From a virus, in the IMG/VR virus record IMGVR_UViG_2162886007_000025, positions 1 through 28,685 of that record: a stretch of DNA of 28,685 nt; one strand, given 5' to 3'. The stretch's first letter is position 1, and each line of letters begins with the position of its first letter. The notes under the pieces are model-generated. The model was given only the letters and a program-made list of their open reading frames with translations. It had not been told where the DNA came from and did no database searches. The position numbers and the translations under genes were made by a program. Positions 545-27,595 of this stretch are shown here, one piece after another.

Positions 545-2023
545 TCAGCGAAAGAATTTGCCTGACACACAATGCAAAAGCGCCCTTTTACCGTTTGCGT
601 ACACAATACAATGCGTATGGTGCCAGGATGACGGCGAATCCTCGTTGTATCCCATCTTTAGCTTGCTTGTTGTGCCGACGCAGTAAGCACCATCGATGAT
701 CGCAGGAGAGTGGCTGTGGCCGGTTACTGTGCGAGCGCCGATATTGCTAAATCCTTTCGTGCTGCCTCTTGCTCCGTTTGGCCCTCGATGCCCATGGAAG
801 CCTAGCTCGATACCATGACGCGAGAACGATTCGCCTGGTCGCAGCCAGTGGATAGCTTCAGGAGTGGATGCAAGCTTATCAACCCAGTACTTGAATGGGT
901 CAAGATACGAGCCTTCATGAATCGCACGCAACATTGCGGCCTTGGTCTCGTGATAGACCAATGCGTTCTCAAGGTCTAGCGCGTTTTCGTACTTCGATAG
1001 GTATTGCGTGAAGTGTTCGTTGTGGTTTGATCCCACCATGACGATCTCAGGCGCCCACTTCGAGATGCGGTCTAGGATCTTGGCCGTTACCTTCAGCTCA
1101 GACAGAATGCTGTTCTGCTTGGTGATGTGCAACTTGAATCGCTCGAAATAGCCTGAGTGGTGCGAGGCAGAGGAGAAGTCCAGCGCGTCATGCAGGCACA
1201 CAGATTTAGGCTTGACAGTCAGCGCAAGACGCTCTGTGGCGTCTAGAGCCTTACTGTCTACCTGTCTAGCGTGTAGGTCGCCAAGGATCAATACAGATGC
1301 ATCTTGAGCCAGCTCAGCGCCATGCCTAGAGTACTTAACCATAAGATCAATGAACGAGCCGTCCTTCTCACCCAGTACGTGGCGAAGGTGCGTACCTTTT
1401 CGGTCAACCTCGACAATCACGGCGCCTAGTGTGTGGTGGAATTCGCCTTTCTTACCAGCGTTGGTGTCTGAGTACTGAGGCACAGTGCAGGCGCCAGTGG
1501 TCATCACGAGCTTAGCGTCATCGCCAACCATAGTCGGCACGGACTGAAGCGCGACCTTCGTGTGAGCCAGGATCGCAGAGTCAGTGCCAGATACAGTCAG
1601 CCAGCCTTGCAGCGGGTTAATTGCCGTAGGCTGAACCTTGATGTCAGCCAGCAGAACAACGTCTCGGCACAGCTTGGTGCGCTGGTTGACAATATGCGTA
1701 GTCAGTCGAGCGTCCCACCAGTCATCAGGCGTCTCTTCCTTGCGCGTAGGGTTGCGATAACGCATAGGTAGAACGATCAGCTTGGCGTTATTAGCCTGGC
1801 AGTAGGTATGCAGCGATGCCAGGAACCCGTTGTGCGCCTTTGTAGCGTTGACCGCTGACGTAATGACATAGGTGTCTGCCTGCTCTTGATTGGCCGCTTC
1901 CTGTGCTGGCTCGCTAGCAATCCGCGCCTTCCATCTACGCACAGTCCGCTCATTAATCCCTAGATGATCCGCCGTCTGTTGATTCGTGTAGCCCTGACTC
2001 ATGCACCACTGAAGCTCTTGCAT
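545..2023 (-). CDS. T5 A1-like protein: HTH plus calcineurin-type metallophosphatase
   Basis: The 492-residue product opens with a helix-turn-helix (about 1-36; GYTNQQTADHLGINERTVRR). A long middle region follows, then a metallophosphoesterase core. The metal-binding blocks appear in order: GDLHA at 248-252, HDALD at 278-282, GSNHNE at 331-336, GFHGHRG at 408-414 and TGHSHS at 434-439. This layout matches the T5 A1 pre-early protein and relatives, which are linked to DNA transfer and host DNA breakdown; here the nuclease or phosphatase role is inferred. I chose the ATG at 2023 over the one at 2029 because GAGGG is then 6 nt upstream rather than touching the start codon. The gene lies just beyond a leftward terminator, so it probably has separate expression. 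It could instead be a generic phage metallophosphatase. Confidence 0.7.
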   Translation of the reverse strand: MQELQWCMSQGYTNQQTADHLGINERTVRRWKARIASEPAQEAANQEQADTYVITSAVNATKAHNGFLASLHTYCQANNAKLIVLPMRYRNPTRKEETPDDWWDARLTTHIVNQRTKLCRDVVLLADIKVQPTAINPLQGWLTVSGTDSAILAHTKVALQSVPTMVGDDAKLVMTTGACTVPQYSDTNAGKKGEFHHTLGAVIVEVDRKGTHLRHVLGEKDGSFIDLMVKYSRHGAELAQDASVLILGDLHARQVDSKALDATERLALTVKPKSVCLHDALDFSSASHHSGYFERFKLHITKQNSILSELKVTAKILDRISKWAPEIVMVGSNHNEHFTQYLSKYENALDLENALVYHETKAAMLRAIHEGSYLDPFKYWVDKLASTPEAIHWLRPGESFSRHGIELGFHGHRGPNGARGSTKGFSNIGARTVTGHSHSPAIIDGAYCVGTTSKLKMGYNEDSPSSWHHTHCIVYANGKRALLHCVSGKFFR

Positions 2024-2067
2024 TTTCATCCCTCAACCGATCTTGTGTAAATCCATTATGCAATGAA

Positions 2068-2087
2068 AAGGCCCTGTTGCGGGCCTT
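2068..2087 (-). terminator. Intrinsic terminator, leftward
   Basis: Perfect 7-bp stem AAGGCCC / GGGCCTT with loop GCAACA, followed on the minus strand by TTC after the stem's own TT. It lies between the DUF6378-like gene and the A1-like gene and should reduce read-through into the latter. Confidence 0.65.
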
Positions 2088-2120: not shown

Positions 2121-2633
2121 TCATTTGGCTGTGCTCGTTGGGCTTAGGCGGTAGGCTGTAATTCCATGCCAGTGTTCGGCACCGCATGGATCCCCGTCTC
2201 TTGATTTGAAGTCGCCCATAGTAAGCGCAGGAATTGAATAAGCCTCGTCGCCATCGGTGTATCTGACATCTACCAGAACGCCTTTCGCAACCGGTGATGA
2301 ATCGTCTCCATTCCATTCAAGCCATGCGCTGGCTACTTCCTTCTCCTCTAGCTGCCCACACTGCTCACTAGCTGCCTCAGCGTACAGTGACGCATAGGCC
2401 ACGAAATCAAGCGCGGAGTCATGATGGTATTGGTCTGGGTTTTGCGCCTGCCTGACGAGCTTCAGGAGGCTTAGAATAAGCCAGCCGTCCGACTCTTCCA
2501 GCATGCTGCCAGTGATGCAGTTGAATGCGCTTACGGTTGCAGCCATCGACCGCTCACCAGTCGGCTTGTCGTACTGCTTGCCGCGCTCAGCCTGAACGTC
2601 GATTGCTGCCTGTAGGAATTCTGTGGATTTCAT
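2121..2633 (-). CDS. DUF6378-like phage protein
   Basis: 170 residues. The N-terminal part (about 1-92) has the block ERGKQYDKPTGERSMA, then DGWLILSLLKLVRQAQ and HHDSALDFVAYASLYA, which I associate with the DUF6378 family of small phage early proteins. The helical DxxxY-type pattern recalls MazG-like folds, but catalytic acids are not obvious. The C-terminal part (about 105-165) is a separate WNGDD...VDVRYTDGDE region seen in other phage proteins, so this may be a fusion. GAAGGGG lies 8 nt before the ATG, and the start overlaps the TGA of the upstream membrane gene. Confidence 0.65.
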   Translation of the reverse strand: MKSTEFLQAAIDVQAERGKQYDKPTGERSMAATVSAFNCITGSMLEESDGWLILSLLKLVRQAQNPDQYHHDSALDFVAYASLYAEAASEQCGQLEEKEVASAWLEWNGDDSSPVAKGVLVDVRYTDGDEAYSIPALTMGDFKSRDGDPCGAEHWHGITAYRLSPTSTAK

Positions 2634-7076: not shown

Positions 7077-8033
7077 CTATTTCTGCCAGCCTGGAACGGT
7101 TGCGCTCACTTGTTTTTGCAGAGCCGTGTAAGCCTTGGAATCAATCACGATTAGCTTGACATCTGGATGATATTTAGCCATGCGCTTGATCTTTGTAACG
7201 CTCTTGGCATCCATCCATCCCTTGACCTCGTGGTATTCCTCTGACTCGTCGTTTTTGATGACATGGAAGTCAGGCAGGTAGCTAACGCATCCGCGCTTGA
7301 TTCCCTCAAACCAAAAGACCTTTGATTCGTGCGTCCAGTCTTTGATCTCTCCGTTGACCTTCAGCGACTCCAGGTAATAGGCGTAGTTCGATTCCCACTT
7401 GGACCGGTAGTATTTCCTCTTCCCGCCGATCTCATGCCATGCAGCCTTCCATGTGCAGTTCTTGCGTGGTGGTGCGTATGTGCCGTTAGCCATCTTCGTC
7501 TTCGTTCCCTTAATCAGATATTCAATCCTTTTCTCATCGGTAAGGCTCCGGTTCCATTCGGTGCATATCGATGATAACGCGGCTTTCGTGCTTTCACTGT
7601 GGCTCTTCCCTAGCATTCCTCGTGGATGCCCATTCTCTGCAATTGCTTTCTTCTGTCTCTCTGAATGAAAGGCCGATAGCTCTTCCTTGGTATCGAATTT
7701 GTTCGGGTACTCCTTTCGGAATTCGACAACTTTCCTATTCCTGTCTCCAAGGCCAATCCTAGAAGCCTTGAGGAATATCGCTGCCCTTGTCTTGCCTGTC
7801 AGCTCTTCAAGCCTATCAATGCGAACTGGCTTGTCGGTAGCGTACTCGTCGCGGATCATCTGTATCTGGTCTTCCGTCCATTCGCGAGACTCAAGCAATC
7901 CAAGGCGCCAGCATTTATTTCTAACCGCCTTTTCTGACCTTCCGAGCGATAAGGCCATCTCCTTAATGGATAGGCCATCCGCAATACCAAACCTCAGAAG
8001 CTGGATGTCAGCCTCCTCCCACAATTCACTCAT
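7077..8033 (-). CDS. Homing-endonuclease-like protein: HTH repeats, NUMOD3-like, PD-(D/E)XK
   Basis: 318 residues in three parts. Residues about 1-98 hold two Myb/HTH-like units (IKEMALSLGRSEKAVRNKCW; then a second ending ASRIGLGDR). Residues about 128-160 contain GMLGKSHSESTKAALSS, the NUMOD3 DNA-binding motif of homing enzymes. Residues about 208-298 form a PD-(D/E)XK core with Glu214 in SKWE, PD at 254-255 and E269-V-K271 (HEVKGW). Such architecture is known in phage homing endonucleases. Its ATG overlaps the stop of the 84-residue gene, so it is embedded in the replication operon rather than in an obvious intron. Target site unknown. Confidence 0.75.
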   Translation of the reverse strand: MSELWEEADIQLLRFGIADGLSIKEMALSLGRSEKAVRNKCWRLGLLESREWTEDQIQMIRDEYATDKPVRIDRLEELTGKTRAAIFLKASRIGLGDRNRKVVEFRKEYPNKFDTKEELSAFHSERQKKAIAENGHPRGMLGKSHSESTKAALSSICTEWNRSLTDEKRIEYLIKGTKTKMANGTYAPPRKNCTWKAAWHEIGGKRKYYRSKWESNYAYYLESLKVNGEIKDWTHESKVFWFEGIKRGCVSYLPDFHVIKNDESEEYHEVKGWMDAKSVTKIKRMAKYHPDVKLIVIDSKAYTALQKQVSATVPGWQK

Positions 8034-8284
8034 CGTTTAACCTTCAGCAATAAGTTCAGTTGGCGCCGGGTTTCGGCTTCGATATCAGGCTTTTCCTTAA
8101 GAGTCCTTTCTGCCCACAATCTCCCCTTATTCGCCTTCAACCCAAAATAGATCGCGCTGGCATGGTCCCGAGCTAGCTTCCATCTCTGGAGACAGTCCGC
8201 TTTGTGATCCTCGATGCTCTGGCGTTCGGCAGTCGAAAGGGTTGCCAAATTCACCGGCCCAACATTCGTAACACAGATAGTCAT
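8030..8284 (-). CDS. Hypothetical protein (84 aa) between helicase and endonuclease
   Basis: Starts MTICVTNVGPVNLATLSTAE and is helical and basic toward the end (TRRQLNLLLKVKR). GGAGAG lies 5 nt upstream of the ATG. The gene starts 12 bases after the helicase stop and couples to the endonuclease through ATGA. Residues CLQRWKLARDHASAIY might form a helix for protein contacts; no function assigned. Confidence 0.55.
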   Translation of the reverse strand: MTICVTNVGPVNLATLSTAERQSIEDHKADCLQRWKLARDHASAIYFGLKANKGRLWAERTLKEKPDIEAETRRQLNLLLKVKR

Positions 8285-8296
8285 TTGCGCTCTCCA

Positions 8297-9673
8297 TTAG
8301 AAGCCTTCCTTCTTCCACTTAGTACCGCCGCTACTCTTAGGTGCCGGCTCTTCCTCATCCCATCCTTGGAACACAGCAGGATCAAGCTTGGTAAACCTCG
8401 AGTACTTGCCCTGGAAGATGCTGAAGAACGTCTCTGGTGAACACTCTCGAGCGGCACCAATGATGATCTCGGCAATCCCTTTGCGATCAGTATCCGGATG
8501 ATAAACCTCGTCGCGATAGACAAAGATGATCATGTCTGCATCTTGCTCGAGCGATCCAGAGTCGCGCAGATCAGAAGGTACAGGCCGTTTGTTCGGTCGC
8601 TGCTCGAGCGAACGGTTGAGCTGTGACAGGAACAGGACCGGAACATTCAGCTCCTTAGCCATTAGCTTAGCCTGCCTCGAGATCTCCGTAATCTTTGCCA
8701 CTTGGTTGTGCTTTGGATCATCCGCGTTCAGTAGCCCAAGGTGATCGACCATGATCAGGTCCAGACCATCCTTACGCTTCTTGCGTCGTGCGTCGGCGCG
8801 GATCTGCTGCATGGTGTAGCTAGAGCGATAGGATGCATCGAAGTGCGCGTCTTTCATCTTGGATACAGCAGCCATGAGTTGCGCCGAGTGATCCGACAAT
8901 GCAGAGCCATCCTTCATGGCATCAAGCGGGATAGTAGACTCGGCAGCCAGCACCTTATCCATCACCTGCTTCTCGGTCATCTCGAGGTGATACATCATCA
9001 CCCGCTTACCTTGACGGATGGCCGCGTGCTGACAGATACCTAGCGCAAAGGTCGTCTTGCCCATCTTCGGACGACCCGCAACTAGATACAGCCCGCCAGG
9101 CTGAAGGCCGCCAGTGTGGTTATCGAAGTCCTCGTGCCCTGTAGCGATACCAGTGACAGCATTGTCACCAGCAAGCCGAACCTCAAGAACGTCCATATGC
9201 TTAACGAGCGAATCGAAGATGTTCACGGTATCGTTCGTGGCTGTCTCGGTATCAAGCCCAAGGATAGCCGTCTGCGATCTCGAGATTTTGTCTTCGGTTT
9301 GAATGGTACTGTGCGCGATCTCGTGAATCTCTCGAGCAGCCTCAATCAAACTACGGTCCATGGACCGCTCACGCACGATCCTAGCGTATTGCTCTGCGTT
9401 GGCGGTACTAGGCGTGCCCTTCTGGATTTCGGCAGTGTAGGCGAACGCTGGCTCTCCGCTGTCCAGATTCCCGATGTGCTCGCCAACCGTCAAAAAGTCA
9501 ATGTGACGGTTAAGCGAGTTCAGCTCGAGTATGGCCTTGAAGACGTCAGCGTTGTCCTGCCAATAGAAATCCTTGGCCGATATATCAGCGCATAGTAGGT
9601 CGATCATCTCGGGCGCAATCATCATTGCACCCAAGACGCTCTGTTCAGCCTCCAGGCTAAAAGGATCTCTCAT
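8297..9673 (-). CDS. dnaB: DnaB-like replicative DNA helicase
   Basis: 458 residues, the normal length of DnaB. An N-terminal DnaB domain (about 4-105; LEAEQSVLGAMMI) leads to the RecA-like motor: Walker A GRPKMGKT at 200-207, Walker B LIMVDHLGLL at 306-315, LSQLNRSLEQR at 349-359 and DLRDSGSLEQDAD at 368-380. It should form a hexamer that unwinds the phage fork, loaded by the DnaC-like protein just upstream. In the usual K-x-R-x-G-P arginine-finger region it reads AARECSP, so Arg remains but Lys and Gly are replaced. GGAGCGGG precedes the ATG. Confidence 0.92.
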   Translation of the reverse strand: MRDPFSLEAEQSVLGAMMIAPEMIDLLCADISAKDFYWQDNADVFKAILELNSLNRHIDFLTVGEHIGNLDSGEPAFAYTAEIQKGTPSTANAEQYARIVRERSMDRSLIEAAREIHEIAHSTIQTEDKISRSQTAILGLDTETATNDTVNIFDSLVKHMDVLEVRLAGDNAVTGIATGHEDFDNHTGGLQPGGLYLVAGRPKMGKTTFALGICQHAAIRQGKRVMMYHLEMTEKQVMDKVLAAESTIPLDAMKDGSALSDHSAQLMAAVSKMKDAHFDASYRSSYTMQQIRADARRKKRKDGLDLIMVDHLGLLNADDPKHNQVAKITEISRQAKLMAKELNVPVLFLSQLNRSLEQRPNKRPVPSDLRDSGSLEQDADMIIFVYRDEVYHPDTDRKGIAEIIIGAARECSPETFFSIFQGKYSRFTKLDPAVFQGWDEEEPAPKSSGGTKWKKEGF

Positions 9674-9730
9674 TTTCCCGCTCCGAATAATTATTTCCCA
9701 ATGGTATTGCCTCCATGGCGCCGGAGCAAT

Positions 9731-10492
9731 CTATTTCTTTTTTCGGTTTGATTCGCCTTGGAAGATAAGACATTCGCCGCCGCCTTCGCGCAGACGGTCG
9801 AAGCATCGTTCGCCAATCGCTTCGCCAATTTGTTTTGGACCAAGGTTGGAAATGATGATAGTTGGCAGCTTCCATTCATACCTCGAGTTGATGATGTTGA
9901 ACAGCGTTGCCATCTCAAACTCCGACTGCTTTGTTGCGCCCACCTCGTCAAGAACCAGCAGGTGAGTATCCGTGACCGAGGCAATCACGTCAGACTCGCT
10001 AAACCCAGAGTCTTTCTCGTATGAGGACCGGATAACTTGCAGCAGTCCGTTCACAGTCCAGTATTTCCCGGTGTAGCCCTGCTTTTCAACCGCATCCTTC
10101 AGGATCGCAATCGCGAGATGTGTTTTACCGGTTCCGACAGTTCCGGAAAGGATGAGGCATCGACCGTCAGCGTAATGGGTATCGAAATTCTCGGCGTAAT
10201 CTTGGCACTTCTCGAGATTTGAACGCTGCCCACCAGATGATGGCGAATAGTCCAAGAAGGATTTGTCAGCGAACCTGGCTGGAATGCGGCACGCAGCAAC
10301 ACGATCAGCTATCTCTTTTGCCTTTCTAGCCTCGCTCTGTGCCTTTTGCTCGGTTAGATATTGATCTCGCTGCTTCTCTTGGCTGCACATAGCGCAAAAA
10401 GAAAGGCTTGCGCCATCATCATCTGAGCCGGCCAGCTCTTCAGGATGGGCAGTGCAAAGGCCAGCATGGTAGGTAAATGGTTTAAAGGCCAT
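9731..10492 (-). CDS. dnaC: DnaC/IstB-like helicase loader ATPase
   Basis: 253 residues from MAFKPFTYHAGLC; the ATG at 10492 has GAGGA 8 nt upstream (the upstream gene's stop lies in this TGAGGA). An N-terminal Cys/His cluster (Cys13, His16, Cys33, Cys36) is a probable zinc site. A basic helix follows, then an AAA+ core: Walker A GTVGTGKT at 117-124, Walker B LLVLDEVG at 178-185, sensor-type IIISN to 216 and DRLR at 222-225 as a likely arginine finger. It should load the DnaB-like helicase encoded next. IstB-type transposition helpers look similar, but context argues for replication. Confidence 0.88.
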   Translation of the reverse strand: MAFKPFTYHAGLCTAHPEELAGSDDDGASLSFCAMCSQEKQRDQYLTEQKAQSEARKAKEIADRVAACRIPARFADKSFLDYSPSSGGQRSNLEKCQDYAENFDTHYADGRCLILSGTVGTGKTHLAIAILKDAVEKQGYTGKYWTVNGLLQVIRSSYEKDSGFSESDVIASVTDTHLLVLDEVGATKQSEFEMATLFNIINSRYEWKLPTIIISNLGPKQIGEAIGERCFDRLREGGGECLIFQGESNRKKK

Positions 10493-10502
10493 ATTATTAT
10501 CC

Positions 10503-11249
10503 TCAGAATCGTAGTGAACCATTTTCGTCGACGGTCAAGCCGTCCATGTAATCAATCTGGTCGAATCCACTGTGTCGCGCAGATGCCGATTTGACGCTAT
10601 CCGGAAACAGCCCCTGCCAGCCAGCGGCAATAGATTTGCGGATAACCTCGTCTGCATTGCCATGACCATCTAGCTGCTTAGCCTGTGCGGTACACATTGC
10701 CTTGGTCAGCGGCTTCCTGCTTTCCGATCTTGCCTGACACCATTCAGCCCATACCTGTTCGCTTACGTTCGCAGGCTTCATTGGCAACGGATCAAACTTA
10801 ACCCTAGCGGCCTTTGCCGCGACAGATGTTTTTTCTTGTTTGTTGGTTAATGGTTCTTGGTTGGTGGTTAGTGGTTTATGGTTAAGGTTATTCGTGGGTT
10901 CATTTTCAAAACCATCTGGGTTATCTGTAGGTTTCTTTGGTCTTCCCCCAAGCTTTCCATTCTCGCGGTTTGCTCCTGCCTTTCCGTGATAGCCCTTGAT
11001 CTCCTTGTCGCATCGTGCGTGATGGTATCCATCATCAGATAGAAAGAAAAACTCATTCAAAACAACGGATAGAGCCTGCTCGTGGGTAGCCAAACGCAAC
11101 CTACGAATAACCCACTGGGTTTCTTGTGGGATAGGCATCTCGCTTTCGTAGTAGTGATCGATCAGTCGGCGATAGACTCCTTCCTCTTCTATGGATAGGT
11201 GCGCAGTGTCCCTCGTCCAGTCCTTAATGTTGAATTTGTAGTAGTGCAT
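10503..11249 (-). CDS. DUF1376-type replication initiation protein
   Basis: 248 residues. Residues about 1-100 form a DUF1376 domain (YYKFNIKDWTRDTAHLSIEE ... GVYRRLIDHYYESE), found in phage replication proteins upstream of DnaC/DnaB. A low-complexity Asn/Pro/Thr linker (about 108-140, NHKPLTTNQEPLTNKQE) is encoded by six 7-bp repeats. The C-terminal part (about 160-215; VWAEWCQARSESRKPLTKAM) resembles a helicase-loader-contacting segment. By analogy with lambda O it may bind an origin inside its own gene. The start overlaps the stop of the Cro-like gene (TAATG). Confidence 0.8.
   Translation of the reverse strand: MHYYKFNIKDWTRDTAHLSIEEEGVYRRLIDHYYESEMPIPQETQWVIRRLRLATHEQALSVVLNEFFFLSDDGYHHARCDKEIKGYHGKAGANRENGKLGGRPKKPTDNPDGFENEPTNNLNHKPLTTNQEPLTNKQEKTSVAAKAARVKFDPLPMKPANVSEQVWAEWCQARSESRKPLTKAMCTAQAKQLDGHGNADEVIRKSIAAGWQGLFPDSVKSASARHSGFDQIDYMDGLTVDENGSLRF
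10844..10885 (+). repeat. Six tandem 7-bp iteron-like repeats (TGGTTNN), candidate origin
   Basis: Six contiguous units on the plus strand: TGGTTAA, TGGTTCT, TGGTTGG, TGGTTAG, TGGTTTA, TGGTTAA, with a degenerate seventh (GGTTATT) after. The first five bases are invariant in all six. They lie within the linker of the replication protein gene, where lambdoid phages place origin iterons. The neighbouring T-run (10828-10834) could serve as an unwinding element. Confidence 0.6.
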
Positions 11250-11419
11250 TAGCGGCCCTCAAAATAATCGCTGAGAGCCTTAACCACCTTATAAGTAGGG
11301 TTAGCGCTTGGCGTGTCACGTATCTGGCGGATGGTGTTGTAGTGAAGACCTGTAGCCTCAGCAACCAGAGGAACGCGGCGGTCTTGCAGAAGAGATCGGA
11401 TCATTTCAAGCGTCAGCAT
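11249..11419 (-). CDS. Cro-like small HTH regulator (56 aa)
   Basis: Start MLTLEMIRSLLQDRRVPLVA is chosen for the AGGA 9 nt upstream; a longer frame is unsupported. Residues about 14-40 (VPLVAEATGLHYNTIRQIRD) make a helix-turn-helix, followed by PTYKVVKALSDYFEGR, the layout of Cro/CI-like minimal repressors. As first gene of the leftward arm next to dyad-rich DNA it is likely to act on the divergent promoters. Its stop overlaps the replication gene start. Confidence 0.7.
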   Translation of the reverse strand: MLTLEMIRSLLQDRRVPLVAEATGLHYNTIRQIRDTPSANPTYKVVKALSDYFEGR

Positions 11420-11436
11420 CTTTGAGTCCTTTGTCA

Positions 11437-11518
11437 GCAATTTGCATTTGGATGGCAAGCATACCACAACCTTTTCCACTAAAACCGTCGTGGATCCATA
11501 TTTCTGCTGGCAATTTGC
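11437..11518. promoter_or_regulatory. Two copies of dyad GCAATTTGC (11437-11445, 11510-11518)
   Basis: Both copies are identical 9-mers, each self-complementary around a central T, 73 bp apart centre to centre. They flank the candidate leftward promoter. Identical dyads near divergent promoters suggest operators for the Cro-like protein or an unseen repressor. Confidence 0.45.
11458..11466 (-). promoter_or_regulatory. Candidate leftward early promoter, extended -10
   Basis: On the minus strand TGG-TATGCT gives a TGn extended -10 about 40 nt upstream of the Cro-like ATG. The -35 (GGTTTT at 11486-11481) is poor, as is usual for extended -10 promoters. It should drive the replication arm. Confidence 0.4.
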
Positions 11519-15477: not shown

Positions 15478-16042
15478 GTCAGTTGTCGCAGAGGTTGAGG
15501 CTGAGTTTGGAGAGCCGTTTATTGATGTTGTTCGTGGGTTTGCGGCAGATAACTACGCATGCGCCACGACGGCAAGGATTATTGGCTACAAACATCCGAA
15601 GGGGCTACGCTCGTATCTTGAGCGCCATGGGCTGAAAGTTGACTGGCCTAAATTTGGTTCGTGTAACTCTCACCAGAACCGATCACCAATCACTGAAGAA
15701 ACCAGAGCCAAGCTGTCCAAAGCAAAGCTTGAGAATCAGCCGACGCTAGCCAAGGAATACGAAAGCAGAACCGGTGAATCGGTCGCACATCTTATCGAGC
15801 GAACCAGAAAGACACACACGATTACTCAAGTTGCCACGATGCTTGGCTATTGCCACTCGACACCATTCCGAGCATGGCTCAAGCGTCATGGCATGGATAC
15901 TGAGTTCATGAAGGCACCGAGCAATTTGCCTAGAGGAATGGGGCTTCAGTCTCGGCGATGCAGGATGGAGACGGATATTACTTTCCAGTCTCGCCGTAAG
16001 CCGCACGTATCAGCGCATCATGCCGCTCCGAGCATTCTCTAA
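15470..16042 (+). CDS. HTH-repeat / NUMOD3-like DNA-binding protein (190 aa)
   Basis: The GTG at 15470 has AGGAG 9 nt upstream and overlaps the preceding gene by 8 bases; a TTG at 15464 is too close to AGGAG. Two homologous modules are seen: about 3-53 (EAEFGEPFIDVVRGFAADNY ... IIGYKHPKGLRSYLERHGLK) and about 97-148 (YESRTGESVAHLIERTRKTH ... MLGYCHSTPFRAWLKRHGMD). A NUMOD3-like SPITEETRAKLSKAKLEN lies between them. The basic C-terminus (from about 160) is encoded opposite the end of Rz1, a 65-bp convergent overlap. No nuclease core is visible; a transcription-factor role is possible. Confidence 0.6.
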   Translation: MARSVVAEVEAEFGEPFIDVVRGFAADNYACATTARIIGYKHPKGLRSYLERHGLKVDWPKFGSCNSHQNRSPITEETRAKLSKAKLENQPTLAKEYESRTGESVAHLIERTRKTHTITQVATMLGYCHSTPFRAWLKRHGMDTEFMKAPSNLPRGMGLQSRRCRMETDITFQSRRKPHVSAHHAAPSIL

Positions 16043-16256
16043 GCGCAGCACCCCATTCAGTCAGTGCAGTCAGAGCGGCTTCACCTGTTACGCCTTCCAG
16101 ATCACTTGGAATCCGGCAAGGCGTCAACAGGCTTGCTTGTGATACGCCCGTTCTTTGCGTCGTTTGCGAGCTGCACGCCGGAAGGATCAAGACAGACGTT
16201 GCGATAGATAGGGCGATCAACAATCTTTTCGCGCTCACGGACAATAGTCGTTTCAT
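15978..16256 (-). CDS. Rz1: Rz1-like outer-membrane spanin lipoprotein
   Basis: 92 residues. MKRLLSVSAKRLLIALSIAT plus SVLILPAC is a lipoprotein signal peptide with lipobox LPAC at Cys28; Ser at +2 predicts outer-membrane sorting. It starts inside the Rz gene in another frame and runs 124 bases beyond it, the usual overlapped Rz/Rz1 layout. It should bind the periplasmic end of Rz and fuse the membranes at lysis. GGAG lies 10 nt upstream. Longer and less Pro-rich than lambda Rz1. Confidence 0.8.
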   Translation of the reverse strand: MKRLLSVSAKRLLIALSIATSVLILPACSSQTTQRTGVSQASLLTPCRIPSDLEGVTGEAALTALTEWGAALRECSERHDALIRAAYGETGK

Positions 16257-16473
16257 TGCTGCGTAACTCCGAAAGGCGAATTTCCCACGCCTTAGCTATA
16301 GATTCGTCTGCCTTGTTCGCGGCGATCACTGAGAATGCCGACTCAAGCTTCTCTCCTGCGCGCTCAGTCGCTATTCTCGACACACTCGCATCATGCCAAA
16401 GGAAAACCACGAACGCTCCGCACGCGAGCCCTGAGAGGAATCGCCACGGCAGCGCGGTTAGCCAGATAGGCAT
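16102..16473 (-). CDS. Rz: Rz-like inner-membrane spanin
   Basis: 123 residues. One N-terminal membrane anchor (about 4-27, ending VVFLWHD) is followed by a long periplasmic helix (SRIATERAGEKLESAFSVIA ... RLSELRSNETTIVREREKIV). The end, DRPIYRNVCLDPSGVQLAND, is common in Rz-like proteins. It has GGAG 7 nt upstream inside a TTCTCCGGAGAA palindrome, and its ATG shares an A with the endolysin TAA. It acts with Rz1 in the final step of lysis. Confidence 0.8.
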   Translation of the reverse strand: MPIWLTALPWRFLSGLACGAFVVFLWHDASVSRIATERAGEKLESAFSVIAANKADESIAKAWEIRLSELRSNETTIVREREKIVDRPIYRNVCLDPSGVQLANDAKNGRITSKPVDALPDSK

Positions 16474-16919
16474 TAGTGTTCTCCGGAGAATAGTTTCAGC
16501 TCTGCCTTGCGACGGCGAGTCAGACCAGCAATTTCAACTCCGTCGTTTTTCGTCCATCTGAGAAGCTGAAGACCAGCGTTAGAGTAATAGCCTTCATTGA
16601 GCATCTTAAGCAGCGTGGAGGTTCTAAGGCTGCCAAGCCCAAGGTTGTATGCGAACGATACCAGCGCATCGAACTGACCCTGCGTGAGTGGCACGGTTAC
16701 AGCCTGAGACACGCCGAGTTCAACCTTGGCCAGCTCCTTAGCGAAACGAGCATCAGCCTGTTCCTTGGTCCACACCGTACCAGGCCAGATATCCATACCG
16801 GTTGAACCCCAGCCAATCGTCCACGGCTTCCCATCCTTGCTACCAGGATCTGGATAAGCCTTAAGCCGCAACGACTCGAAGCTATGGATTAGGTCGATAC
16901 CGGCCTGAGAAGTTTTCAT
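16473..16919 (-). CDS. Endolysin, GH24 (T4/P22-type) lysozyme
   Basis: 148 residues from MKTSQAGIDLIHSFESLRLK. The catalytic triad is readable: Glu15 in HSFESLRLKAYPD, Asp24, and Thr34 in PWTIGWGST. NLGLGSLRTSTLLKMLNEG and GLTRRRKAEL complete the family pattern. It cleaves peptidoglycan glycan strands. No signal peptide or signal-anchor is present, so a holin must release it, and none is evident beside it. The ATG at 16919 has GAGG about 10 nt upstream; a longer upstream frame is non-coding. Confidence 0.92.
   Translation of the reverse strand: MKTSQAGIDLIHSFESLRLKAYPDPGSKDGKPWTIGWGSTGMDIWPGTVWTKEQADARFAKELAKVELGVSQAVTVPLTQGQFDALVSFAYNLGLGSLRTSTLLKMLNEGYYSNAGLQLLRWTKNDGVEIAGLTRRRKAELKLFSGEH
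16479..16490 (-). promoter_or_regulatory. Palindrome TTCTCCGGAGAA at lysis stop-start
   Basis: A 12-bp palindrome identical to the core of the larger one at 3674-3699. It lies in the last codons of the endolysin, and its GGAG is the binding site for Rz. Short-stem sequestration and coupling are possible. Confidence 0.4.
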
Positions 16920-16963
16920 TTGTTTGCGCCTCAAAATATATTTCCATTTTAACTGAAAAGTCA

Positions 16964-16993
16964 TTGCGCAAATCCTGTGTGGCAGATTACAAT
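16964..16993 (+). promoter_or_regulatory. Candidate rightward promoter
   Basis: TTGCGC (-35) and TACAAT (-10, 5 of 6) with 18-bp spacing, 26 nt upstream of the next rightward ATG, in the gap between the divergent endolysin and accessory genes. Confidence 0.35.
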
Positions 16994-17019
16994 CACTCCA
17001 AGCCAACAGGAGCAACCCA

Positions 17020-17274
17020 ATGCATACCAAGAATCAAGCTGAGTTCACGAAGACCATCCACAAAGCCATCTCATACGCCGACGACAAATTTCAGCGCTCA
17101 CGTACGAGCGAATACAAGCACATTTTCGGTATGCTGCGTGGTGCGCTGTTGGTCGGCGGCATCAGCTACGAAATGTACTCATCTCTCTACAGTCACGTTT
17201 GGGAATGCAAATTCGACTCGGACGCAGTAGACATGGAAGATCCCGAGCAGGCAGAATTGAGCATGGAGGATTGA
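17020..17274 (+). CDS. Hypothetical protein (84 aa)
   Basis: MHTKNQAEFTKTIHKAISYA, then a helix with MLRGALLVGGISYEMYSSLY and an acidic tail (DMEDPEQAELSMED). AGGAG precedes the ATG. First gene of the second rightward run, divergent from the lysis cassette. No family recognised. Confidence 0.6.
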   Translation: MHTKNQAEFTKTIHKAISYADDKFQRSRTSEYKHIFGMLRGALLVGGISYEMYSSLYSHVWECKFDSDAVDMEDPEQAELSMED

Positions 17275-17642: not shown

Positions 17643-17998
17643 GCATTCAGCGTTATGCAGTGATTGAGACTGCGCTTTGCATTGGTGGGGATTTGCATGA
17701 TGGCGAAGTGTTGATGGTTCGTGCGGATGATCATGACCGTGAACTGTCTGCGCTGCGGGAAGAGCTGGCCAACCATATCTCATCGAAAAACGCATTCGCG
17801 CAGAATGCAATCGATCTGCAAAAGCGCGCCATAGCCGCCGAGCAGCGGAATGTGACTCTCAGTGATGCGTTAATCAAGATAATCGAGATGAACCGTCAGC
17901 ATGCAAAAGACCAATACGGCGACCCAGATAAGGCGGAGTCATGGGCATGCATACGGGTTTCGCGAGAGGCGCTGGAGACAAAAAATGCAGAGAGCTGA
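17639..17998 (+). CDS. Hypothetical coiled-coil phage protein (119 aa)
   Basis: Starts MSIQRYAVIETALCIGGDLH; a strand-rich first 35 residues (VLMVRADDHDREL) leads into a long coiled coil (SALREELANHISSKNAFAQN ... AAEQRNVTLSDALIKIIEMN). The V-L-A-D-V-D-x-x-L-rich pattern is common in phage accessory proteins. Its end overlaps the HNH gene start by 14 bases. Function unknown. Confidence 0.55.
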   Translation: MSIQRYAVIETALCIGGDLHDGEVLMVRADDHDRELSALREELANHISSKNAFAQNAIDLQKRAIAAEQRNVTLSDALIKIIEMNRQHAKDQYGDPDKAESWACIRVSREALETKNAES

Positions 17999-18521
17999 GC
18001 CATTGCCGACGGTGGAACGGATACGCGAACTTTTCAGCTACGATCCAGAAACAGGGATCTTCACCACCAAGAAAAGCCGCAAGTGCGGTCAAGGCGAAGC
18101 AGGCCGGACAGTTGGCGCAAAGGATGCTCGCGGCCACTTGTTCGCAAGAGTGGATGGCAAGCACTTCAAGCTTCACCGTCTTGCATGGGTCTACATGACT
18201 GGCGAATGGCCGGCGAACATGATCGACCATAAAGACCGTGTAGGCGACAACAACGCCTGGAGCAATCTCCGCGAATGCACTAATGGCGAAAACCAGATGA
18301 ACACTGGTCCGCAGGTAAACAATAGGCTTGGAGTGAAGAACGTAAGCCAAATGAAGAATGGCGCTTTCAAAGCAACAGTTCAGGCCTACAAGAAAATCCA
18401 TGTGCAGATCTTCCTTGATCTTGAAGCTGCTGCCTCATGGGCTCGACAAAAGCGCATTGAGCTGCACGGCGAATTTGCCAGGCACAACACACAACCCACC
18501 GAATCGGGAGCAAGCGAATGA
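17985..18521 (+). CDS. HNH-AP2 homing-type endonuclease
   Basis: 178 residues from MQRAEPLPTVERIRELFSYD; the ATG at 17985 has GGAGA 6 nt upstream. LFSYDPETGIFT is the usual N-terminal strand pair. The HNH_3 core reads LHRLAWVYMTGEWPANMIDH-KD, with His64 and Asp81-His82, then NNAWSNLRECTNGENQMN. An AP2-like DNA-binding domain follows (about 115-165; GVKNVSQMKNGAFKATVQAY). It cuts DNA and likely spreads as a free-standing mobile gene. Second member of the family at 27023-27595. The C-terminus ESGASE comes from a repeated junction cassette. Confidence 0.85.
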   Translation: MQRAEPLPTVERIRELFSYDPETGIFTTKKSRKCGQGEAGRTVGAKDARGHLFARVDGKHFKLHRLAWVYMTGEWPANMIDHKDRVGDNNAWSNLRECTNGENQMNTGPQVNNRLGVKNVSQMKNGAFKATVQAYKKIHVQIFLDLEAAASWARQKRIELHGEFARHNTQPTESGASE

Positions 18522-26644: not shown

Positions 26645-27026
26645 GGTAGTAGATCACTCTTAGATATTGGGATTCGAAATCACTAACGCGCATCAGTCGA
26701 GCCCCCTTCTTCGGGTTAATCTCTAGCGCGTGCAGTCCATTTTCTAGCTCAATTATAACAGCGACATGGATGCATAAAGGTCCGCGAAATACGGCTGCGA
26801 TTGCTCCGTGTTCTGGCGCGCACTCTTCCATGCTGGCTGATTCTTGTTGATAGGCACGGGTGAATTCTTTTGGCTGGGTGTTTCGGATTGAGCCGAATGA
26901 TGGGAGTAGGCGTTTTCCGCAGTGGTGATGCCTTACTTCGCGACATAAACCCCAGCAATCGTACTTGCTTGGGCCGCGCGCGCCGTCTTCGTAGGTTGCC
27001 GCTAGGTAATGATTGATCCAGGTCAT
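26634..27026 (-). CDS. NlpC/P60-like tail protein
   Basis: 130 residues. Cys24 in KYDCWGLCREV and His87 in GPLCIHVAVII fit the catalytic pair of NlpC/P60 cysteine peptidases, with ALEINPKKGARL after. In lambda the equivalent (gpK) lies between gpL and gpI/gpJ, as here. It may help the tail pass through peptidoglycan. The start overlaps the HNH gene stop (ATGA) with GAGAG upstream. Confidence 0.8.
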   Translation of the reverse strand: MTWINHYLAATYEDGARGPSKYDCWGLCREVRHHHCGKRLLPSFGSIRNTQPKEFTRAYQQESASMEECAPEHGAIAAVFRGPLCIHVAVIIELENGLHALEINPKKGARLMRVSDFESQYLRVIYYRDN

Positions 27027-27595
27027 GCGCGTCTCTCATGATAAACACATGGAGCCTTTCCATGTTCCTTGGTATATCCATTTTCAGATCTGAATTTTTC
27101 AACGGCTACGGCGGCCGACTCAATAGTTTTATAGAGGCCAAGGCTTTTATATTTACCGTGGCGGTCAACGGTTCTTGCTACCCACTTTCCTGAATTCTTG
27201 TCAAGTGAAACGCCAGATACGCCGCTTGTATTGTCTTTTCGCTTGCTTGCATTTCTTGCGTTAAGATTATTTGCATCTCTCAAGTTTGACCACTTGTTAT
27301 TCGTTCCATCTTGATCTTTGTGGTCGACTTGAGTAGGCGGCTCATTGCCAGTCATGCAGGTCCATGCAAGCCTATGAGCCTTCATTACCTTGCCCATAAT
27401 GTTGATTTGTATGCATTGATATCCAGTTTGGCCTGTGTAAACACTGCCAGCCACTTTTCCAGCGTGCATGTTGTTCCATCTGCTTTGGCTGTTAAGTGAT
27501 TTGAACCAATGAAGATCCCGGCGATTCCACGTAAATATCCCGGAATCTGGATCATAGGAAAGAAATGCTTGGATTGTTTCTTGATTGAAAATCAT
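27023..27595 (-). CDS. HNH-AP2 homing-type endonuclease in tail module
   Basis: 190 residues. FLSYDPDSGIFTWNRRDL at the N-terminus, HNH_3 core AHRLAWTCMTGNEPPTQVDH KD (His74, Asp91-His92) with NNKWSNLRDANNLNARN, and an AP2-like domain (about 124-165; SGVSGVSLDKNSGKWVARTV). Paralogue of 17985-18521. It sits between the DUF1833-type and NlpC/P60 genes, where lambda-like phages have none, so it is an inserted mobile gene. AGAGG lies about 10 nt upstream. Confidence 0.85.
   Translation of the reverse strand: MIFNQETIQAFLSYDPDSGIFTWNRRDLHWFKSLNSQSRWNNMHAGKVAGSVYTGQTGYQCIQINIMGKVMKAHRLAWTCMTGNEPPTQVDHKDQDGTNNKWSNLRDANNLNARNASKRKDNTSGVSGVSLDKNSGKWVARTVDRHGKYKSLGLYKTIESAAVAVEKFRSENGYTKEHGKAPCVYHERRA

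Follow-up and report, generated by a model that had tools for sequence, protein, structure and literature searches.

The 28,685-nucleotide stretch of viral DNA analysed here (the window) encodes a full-length member of the bacteriophage T5 A1 family. The phage that carries it is a lambda-like siphovirus of 48 kb, unrelated to T5. We read the protein, with a probability of roughly 0.55, as a DNA-targeted, Mn-dependent nuclease effector that would degrade host DNA during lytic growth. Ever since T5 A1 was discovered genetically, the question has been if this protein acts as the nuclease behind the destruction of host DNA. Apparently new here are an A1-family protein in lambda-like phages, its occurrence also in true prophages, its exchangeable head and a predicted tandem of metallophosphoesterase (MPE) folds.

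Assignment to the T5 A1 family

The gene and its two candidate start codons are as follows.
545..2029, minus strand: A1-family protein (PHROG 1745), an intact ORF of 494 aa from ATG-2029 or 492 aa from ATG-2023

A PHROGs profile search matched residues 34–493 of the window protein to PHROG 1745, 'DNA transfer protein', with an E-value of 6.3e-143 over profile positions 70–541 of 542. BLAST comparison with T5 A1 (AAU05157; translated from AY692264) gave 33% identity across residues 24–493 (E 2e-69), and over this range the two proteins are collinear, with every MPE motif block present. An initial reading, made from the sequence alone (the sequence-only reading), had called the gene T5 A1-like. 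Both searches bear this out, and instead of an unrelated phosphatase family, which that reading had named as the contrary outcome, the profile search returned A1 and the fold search placed PolD DP1 and Mre11 nearest. Pfam recognised nothing in the protein beyond a helix-turn-helix (HTH) domain, PF13384, and outside the HTH no Pfam or NCBIfam model matched. A defence-system function was dropped as a candidate, as the PADLOC defence models gave no match at E-values up to 1.

The true start is probably ATG-2023, the codon from which the sequence-only reading had also counted: a GAGGG sequence lies 6 nt ahead of it but abuts ATG-2029, and homologs L009, L033 and L010 begin at the equivalent position. 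Residue numbers below nevertheless follow the 494-aa protein from ATG-2029. The residues His252 and Asp282, suggested earlier for mutagenesis, are incorrect in either numbering and should read H253 and D281 (H251 and D279 from ATG-2023). Comparison with close relatives gave dN/dS values of 0.024–0.047, which correspond to strong purifying selection and argue that the gene is functional.

A1-like proteins were found in 1,124 phage records, mostly of T5-like phages but also of Caulobacter, Flavobacterium, Cellulophaga, Rhizobium and Agrobacterium phages, and A1-like genes at at least 343 places in IMG/VR. The sequence-only reading had treated an A1 outside a T5 context as a surprise. Such homologs were first noted in phiJL001 and phiCbK (PMC3556154) and later in KASIA (PMC8541194) and BONAISHI (PMC6207643), and their presence in replication modules has been in print since 2012 (PMC3556154; PMC8541194; PMC6207643), so location outside T5 is not in itself new. 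The label 'putative DNase' for T5 A1 also exists already (PMC7232257). In phiCbK/CcrColossus, KASIA, BONAISHI, Flavobacterium phage elemo, Cellulophaga phage phi4:1 and Agrobacterium phage Atu_ph02 the A1-like gene lies in or near a replication module, as in the window. The published cases likewise lack A2 (KASIA) or a T5 setting (the others). These homologs are however distant from the window protein (27–40% identity), belong to other phage types and include no integrated prophage among the records examined.

Domain architecture of the window protein

Three domains were delineated.
1919..2002, minus strand: N-terminal HTH (HTH_23, PF13384), residues 10–37, E 6e-7
1307..1876, minus strand: middle domain, residues 52–241, predicted Vps29-like MPE fold
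548..1306, minus strand: catalytic MPE domain, residues 242–494, from alignment and predicted structure

The sequence-only reading had described the HTH and all five metal-binding blocks as intact, and both descriptions hold. The blocks are G250-D251-x-H253, H280-D281, S334-N335-H336, H412-G413 and G437-H438-x-H440. In an alignment of 54 homologs the ligands D251, H253, D281, N335, H336, H412, H438 and H440 are invariant, and T5 A1 retains each of the blocks. The catalytic site is thus intact and under selection. These eight residues provide a family-wide set for mutagenesis, together with a putative DNA-binding head that could be separated from them.

The N-termini ahead of residue 52 are not homologous throughout the family, and comprise HTH types, InsA/IS1595 transposase zinc ribbons or no recognised domain. 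The head is therefore predicted to be an exchangeable DNA-binding module of transposase type, represented by an HTH in the window protein; T5 A1 differs from the window protein in lacking the HTH_23 head.

An AlphaFold2 model of the full-length protein had a pLDDT of 89 and a pTM of 0.85, and the middle domain modelled alone had a pLDDT of 91. The middle domain matched Vps29 (Foldseek E 5e-5; Z 9.9, rmsd 3.2, 142 residues aligned), a Z-score above the 7–8 that the tool states as its norm for models without a clear match, and its top-listed structural matches were members of the MPE superfamily. The canonical GDxH, GNHD and GHxH motifs are missing from it. Profile alignment of the middle and catalytic domains with hhalign detected no sequence similarity (probability 0.2%), so the claim of a tandem is one from structure prediction only. 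On that basis we predict for the middle domain a second MPE fold, similar to Vps29 and placed ahead of the active one, presumably as a scaffold or substrate platform. Its invariant residues are R90, Y91, N93, T95, D129, P134, T135, K173, Y186, H198, H199, R216 and D228, most of which T5 A1 keeps; a second MPE-fold domain would account for this conservation beyond the catalytic site. Vps29 resembles the middle domain in fold, but it is a eukaryotic retromer scaffold with about 9% identity and we claim no functional relation.

Residues 242–491 of the model aligned in VIA-align with PolD DP1 (8ppt_A; Z 13.3, rmsd 3.2, 202 residues) and Mre11 (3qg5_C; Z 11.9, 178 residues). The C-terminal domain is accordingly predicted to be an active two-metal MPE domain that most resembles the PolD-DP1 and Mre11 exonucleases. 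PolD DP1 and Mre11/SbcD share the two-metal catalytic fold with the window protein but differ from it in sequence, with 10–18% identity and no match at that level, and in their partners, the PolD large subunit for DP1 and Rad50 for Mre11. A search of PDB sequences with the family profile found no relative.

YfcE and LpxH followed PolD and Mre11 closely in the fold search, all four within about 1–2 Z units, so the fold by itself leaves the DNA substrate unfixed. The nearness of LpxH, YfcE and other MPE enzymes to the DNA nucleases, and the presence of nucleotide enzymes among the neighbours of A1, would suit an enzyme with a small substrate, either an ApaH/LpxH-like phosphatase or nucleotidase or one directed at a nucleotide signal, in nucleotide metabolism or counter-defence. 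We hold such a function to be improbable, given that the family retains a predicted DNA-binding head while swapping its type and that T5 genetics tie A1 to host DNA degradation.

Genome setting and relatives

The surroundings of the gene comprise the following features.
7077..11479, minus strand: leftward replication arm that ends at A1 (regulator, primosomal O-like protein, DnaC loader, DnaB helicase, Holliday junction resolvase-like protein)
11249-11479, minus strand: regulator at the start of the leftward arm
2121..2633, minus strand: DUF6378 protein (PHROG 474, labelled 'phosphofructokinase'), encoded ahead of A1 on the far side of the terminator
2068..2087, minus strand: intrinsic-terminator hairpin, AAGGCCC-loop-GGGCCTT then TTTTC, immediately ahead of A1

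On the opposite arm, the lysis genes and the lambda-type tail genes come after those for an exonuclease VIII-like protein and SSB. The stem and T-run of the terminator are kept in 13 relatives with a variable loop. A1, the last gene of an early replication arm that runs from about 11.5 kb, is thus insulated in its transcription and would need its own promoter or antitermination. This agrees with the sequence-only reading, which had placed the gene at the end of a replication arm behind a terminator. Several relatives also encode the DUF6378 protein near A1, among them members of the window clade and, at 49% identity, Pseudomonas prophage G013. In G013 it persists although nearly all other genes differ, and it is possibly a partner of A1 or a nucleotide enzyme.

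The gene's place in a replication arm of the window, and next to genes for polymerases or helicases in several phages, could also fit a replication or recombination nuclease with phage DNA as its substrate. Such an exonuclease, similar to PolD DP1 or SbcD, would process DNA ends or intermediates of replication; PolD DP1 and Mre11/SbcD are the closest structures. We consider this unlikely. In T5, A1 acts ahead of the onset of replication; the window phage has other genes for an exonuclease VIII-like protein and a Holliday resolvase; and the terminator insulates A1 from the replication genes.

T5 A1 is encoded in the terminal repeat of first-step transfer beside A2 and dmp, whereas the window gene has neither neighbour. 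When 13 T5 proteins were searched by tblastn against the window and 14 relatives, no homolog of A2, dmp, 002, 003, 005, 007, 008 or other pre-early proteins was found, and the only matches were to A1 and to an HNH endonuclease, a promiscuous type common among phages. The sequence-only reading had likewise seen no A2-like or other recognisable T5 pre-early gene in the window. Five of these relatives (G001-G004 and G019) are circular-complete, assembling as circles of 47–50 kb, so the absence is not merely due to fragmentation of the window. As to a long terminal repeat that would hold A1 and be injected first, their circle ends overlap by 105–123 bp only; such repeats can be collapsed during assembly.

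No tyrosine integrase, serine recombinase or S24 repressor was found in the window or in the same five complete relatives. A temperate lifestyle for the window phage was rejected on these grounds, and its own clade is probably virulent. The tail of the window phage resembles those of Pseudomonas phages PS-1 and JBD44. Beyond this clade, the nearest relatives include temperate prophages: a tyrosine integrase is present in most records whose A1 is about 57–61% identical to that of the window, and a CI-type S24 repressor in five of those tested. A 183,872-base contig of Stutzerimonas xanthomarina PX_067 (G021) carries an integrase at 42.1–43.3 kb and A1 at 61.0–62.4 kb, and an exact 23-bp repeat, GCCGGGGGGATTTGAACCCCCGT, occurs at about 41,905 and 86,370, where the tmRNA gene ends at 86,363. 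These repeats are attL and attR in ssrA and bound a 44.5-kb prophage. The catalytic motifs are kept in its A1. The prophages have A1 on the lytic side, downstream of their CI-type repressor. Integrases also occur on the A1 contigs of a second, distant clade (L050, L051 and L054), which the tree separates from the Pseudomonas prophages.

Of the 56 predicted window genes, A1 alone exceeds 50% identity in each of the eight prophage-side genomes; matches to any of these genomes came from just seven further genes, at 25–48%. Either A1 passes between unrelated phage backgrounds or it is far better conserved than its surroundings. With integrated prophages among its closest relatives, A1 appears to be a widely traded, putative host-takeover enzyme and not a T5 speciality. 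A1 prophages are rare: among 298 Pseudomonadaceae genomes a single one, that of the query itself, contained A1, and a pattern search identified 8 loci in GTDB. The literature covered, which is partial, yielded no published report of A1 in prophages, and we found none of the exchangeable N-terminus or the Vps29-like middle MPE fold.

A proposed role in lytic growth

T5 A1 is needed for host DNA degradation (PMC13250531; PMC8541194), and the annotation of the T5 record states the same requirement. The sequence-only reading had suggested a host-takeover or host-DNA-degrading nuclease, which is plausible. For the window protein we propose that the head, here an HTH, would bring the enzyme to DNA, that the C-terminal domain would hydrolyse phosphodiesters with Mn2+, and that host DNA would thereby be broken down during lytic growth and feed phage dNTP synthesis. 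Neither A2 nor two-step DNA injection would be required. In temperate relatives, the location of A1 on the lytic side of the repressor switch would spare lysogens until induction. Among 118 genes adjacent to A1, eight encode dATP/dGTP diphosphohydrolase or DNMK domains; 133 distant control genes included one diphosphohydrolase, with DNMK absent from the 25 commonest families shown. The association of A1 with dNTP enzymes is weak, as the enrichment is small and the counts ignore shared ancestry. In T5, dmp lies near A1.

Two points count against a nuclease: A2 is absent, and a chromosome-degrading enzyme is unexpected in prophages. In addition, according to Davison 2015, as quoted in PMC8541194, T5 A1 had not been reported to act as a DNase. 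The main rival is a role directed at RNA polymerase, in which A1 would bind host RNA polymerase and DNA and shut off or redirect early transcription, its MPE fold serving mainly for binding. T5 A1 has been found with host RNA polymerase and is needed for pre-early shut-off (PMC8541194, PMC3556154), and the authors of the phiCbK and KASIA studies favour such a role where A2 is absent or A1 lies in the replication module. The HTH head, and the position of A1 at the end of the early arm and ahead of the late genes in relatives, are consistent with it. Pure binding would not need metal ligands that are invariant across very distant homologs, and their invariance argues for catalysis; we therefore regard a transcriptional switch as rather unlikely.

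More tentatively than for the window protein's own nuclease role, and at less than even odds, the whole A1 family may be a mobile module for destruction of the host chromosome, common to virulent and temperate phages and built from an exchangeable target-recognition head, a degenerate Vps29-like MPE fold and a Mre11/PolD-like nuclease. It would be silent in the lysogen and, at induction, would degrade the chromosome from which the phage had just excised, without A2 or two-step injection. A homolog that works in this way would separate the nuclease role of A1 from its role in DNA transfer, and the presence of A1 in integrated prophages raises the question of how a lysogen tolerates the gene of a putative chromosome-degrading enzyme. 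Methylase genes adjoin A1 in CcrColossus and phi4:1 (L158, L159); in prophages G013 and G018, an ORF that by eye resembles a C5-methylase lies a few genes upstream of A1. General self-protection of phage DNA by a methylase beside A1 was rejected, as a single C5-methylase domain occurred among the 118 neighbour genes.

Several minor observations were made. A1-family genes occur in MAG contigs assigned to Lachnospiraceae (L084) and Bacilli (L086), so phages of Bacillota seem to carry the family too. Giant ORFs of roughly 2,000–3,280 aa end directly before A1 in seven contigs (L042, L045, L049, L058, L059, L064 and L074); their products are related across most of these contigs and could be large injected or polyvalent proteins. 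HNH endonucleases of PHROG 99 are encoded in the window at 17901-18521 and 27023-27595, the latter between two minor tail genes in the tail cluster, where it looks like a homing insertion. An endolysin and an Rz-like spanin (15978-17030) are encoded on the minus strand in the otherwise plus-strand right arm.
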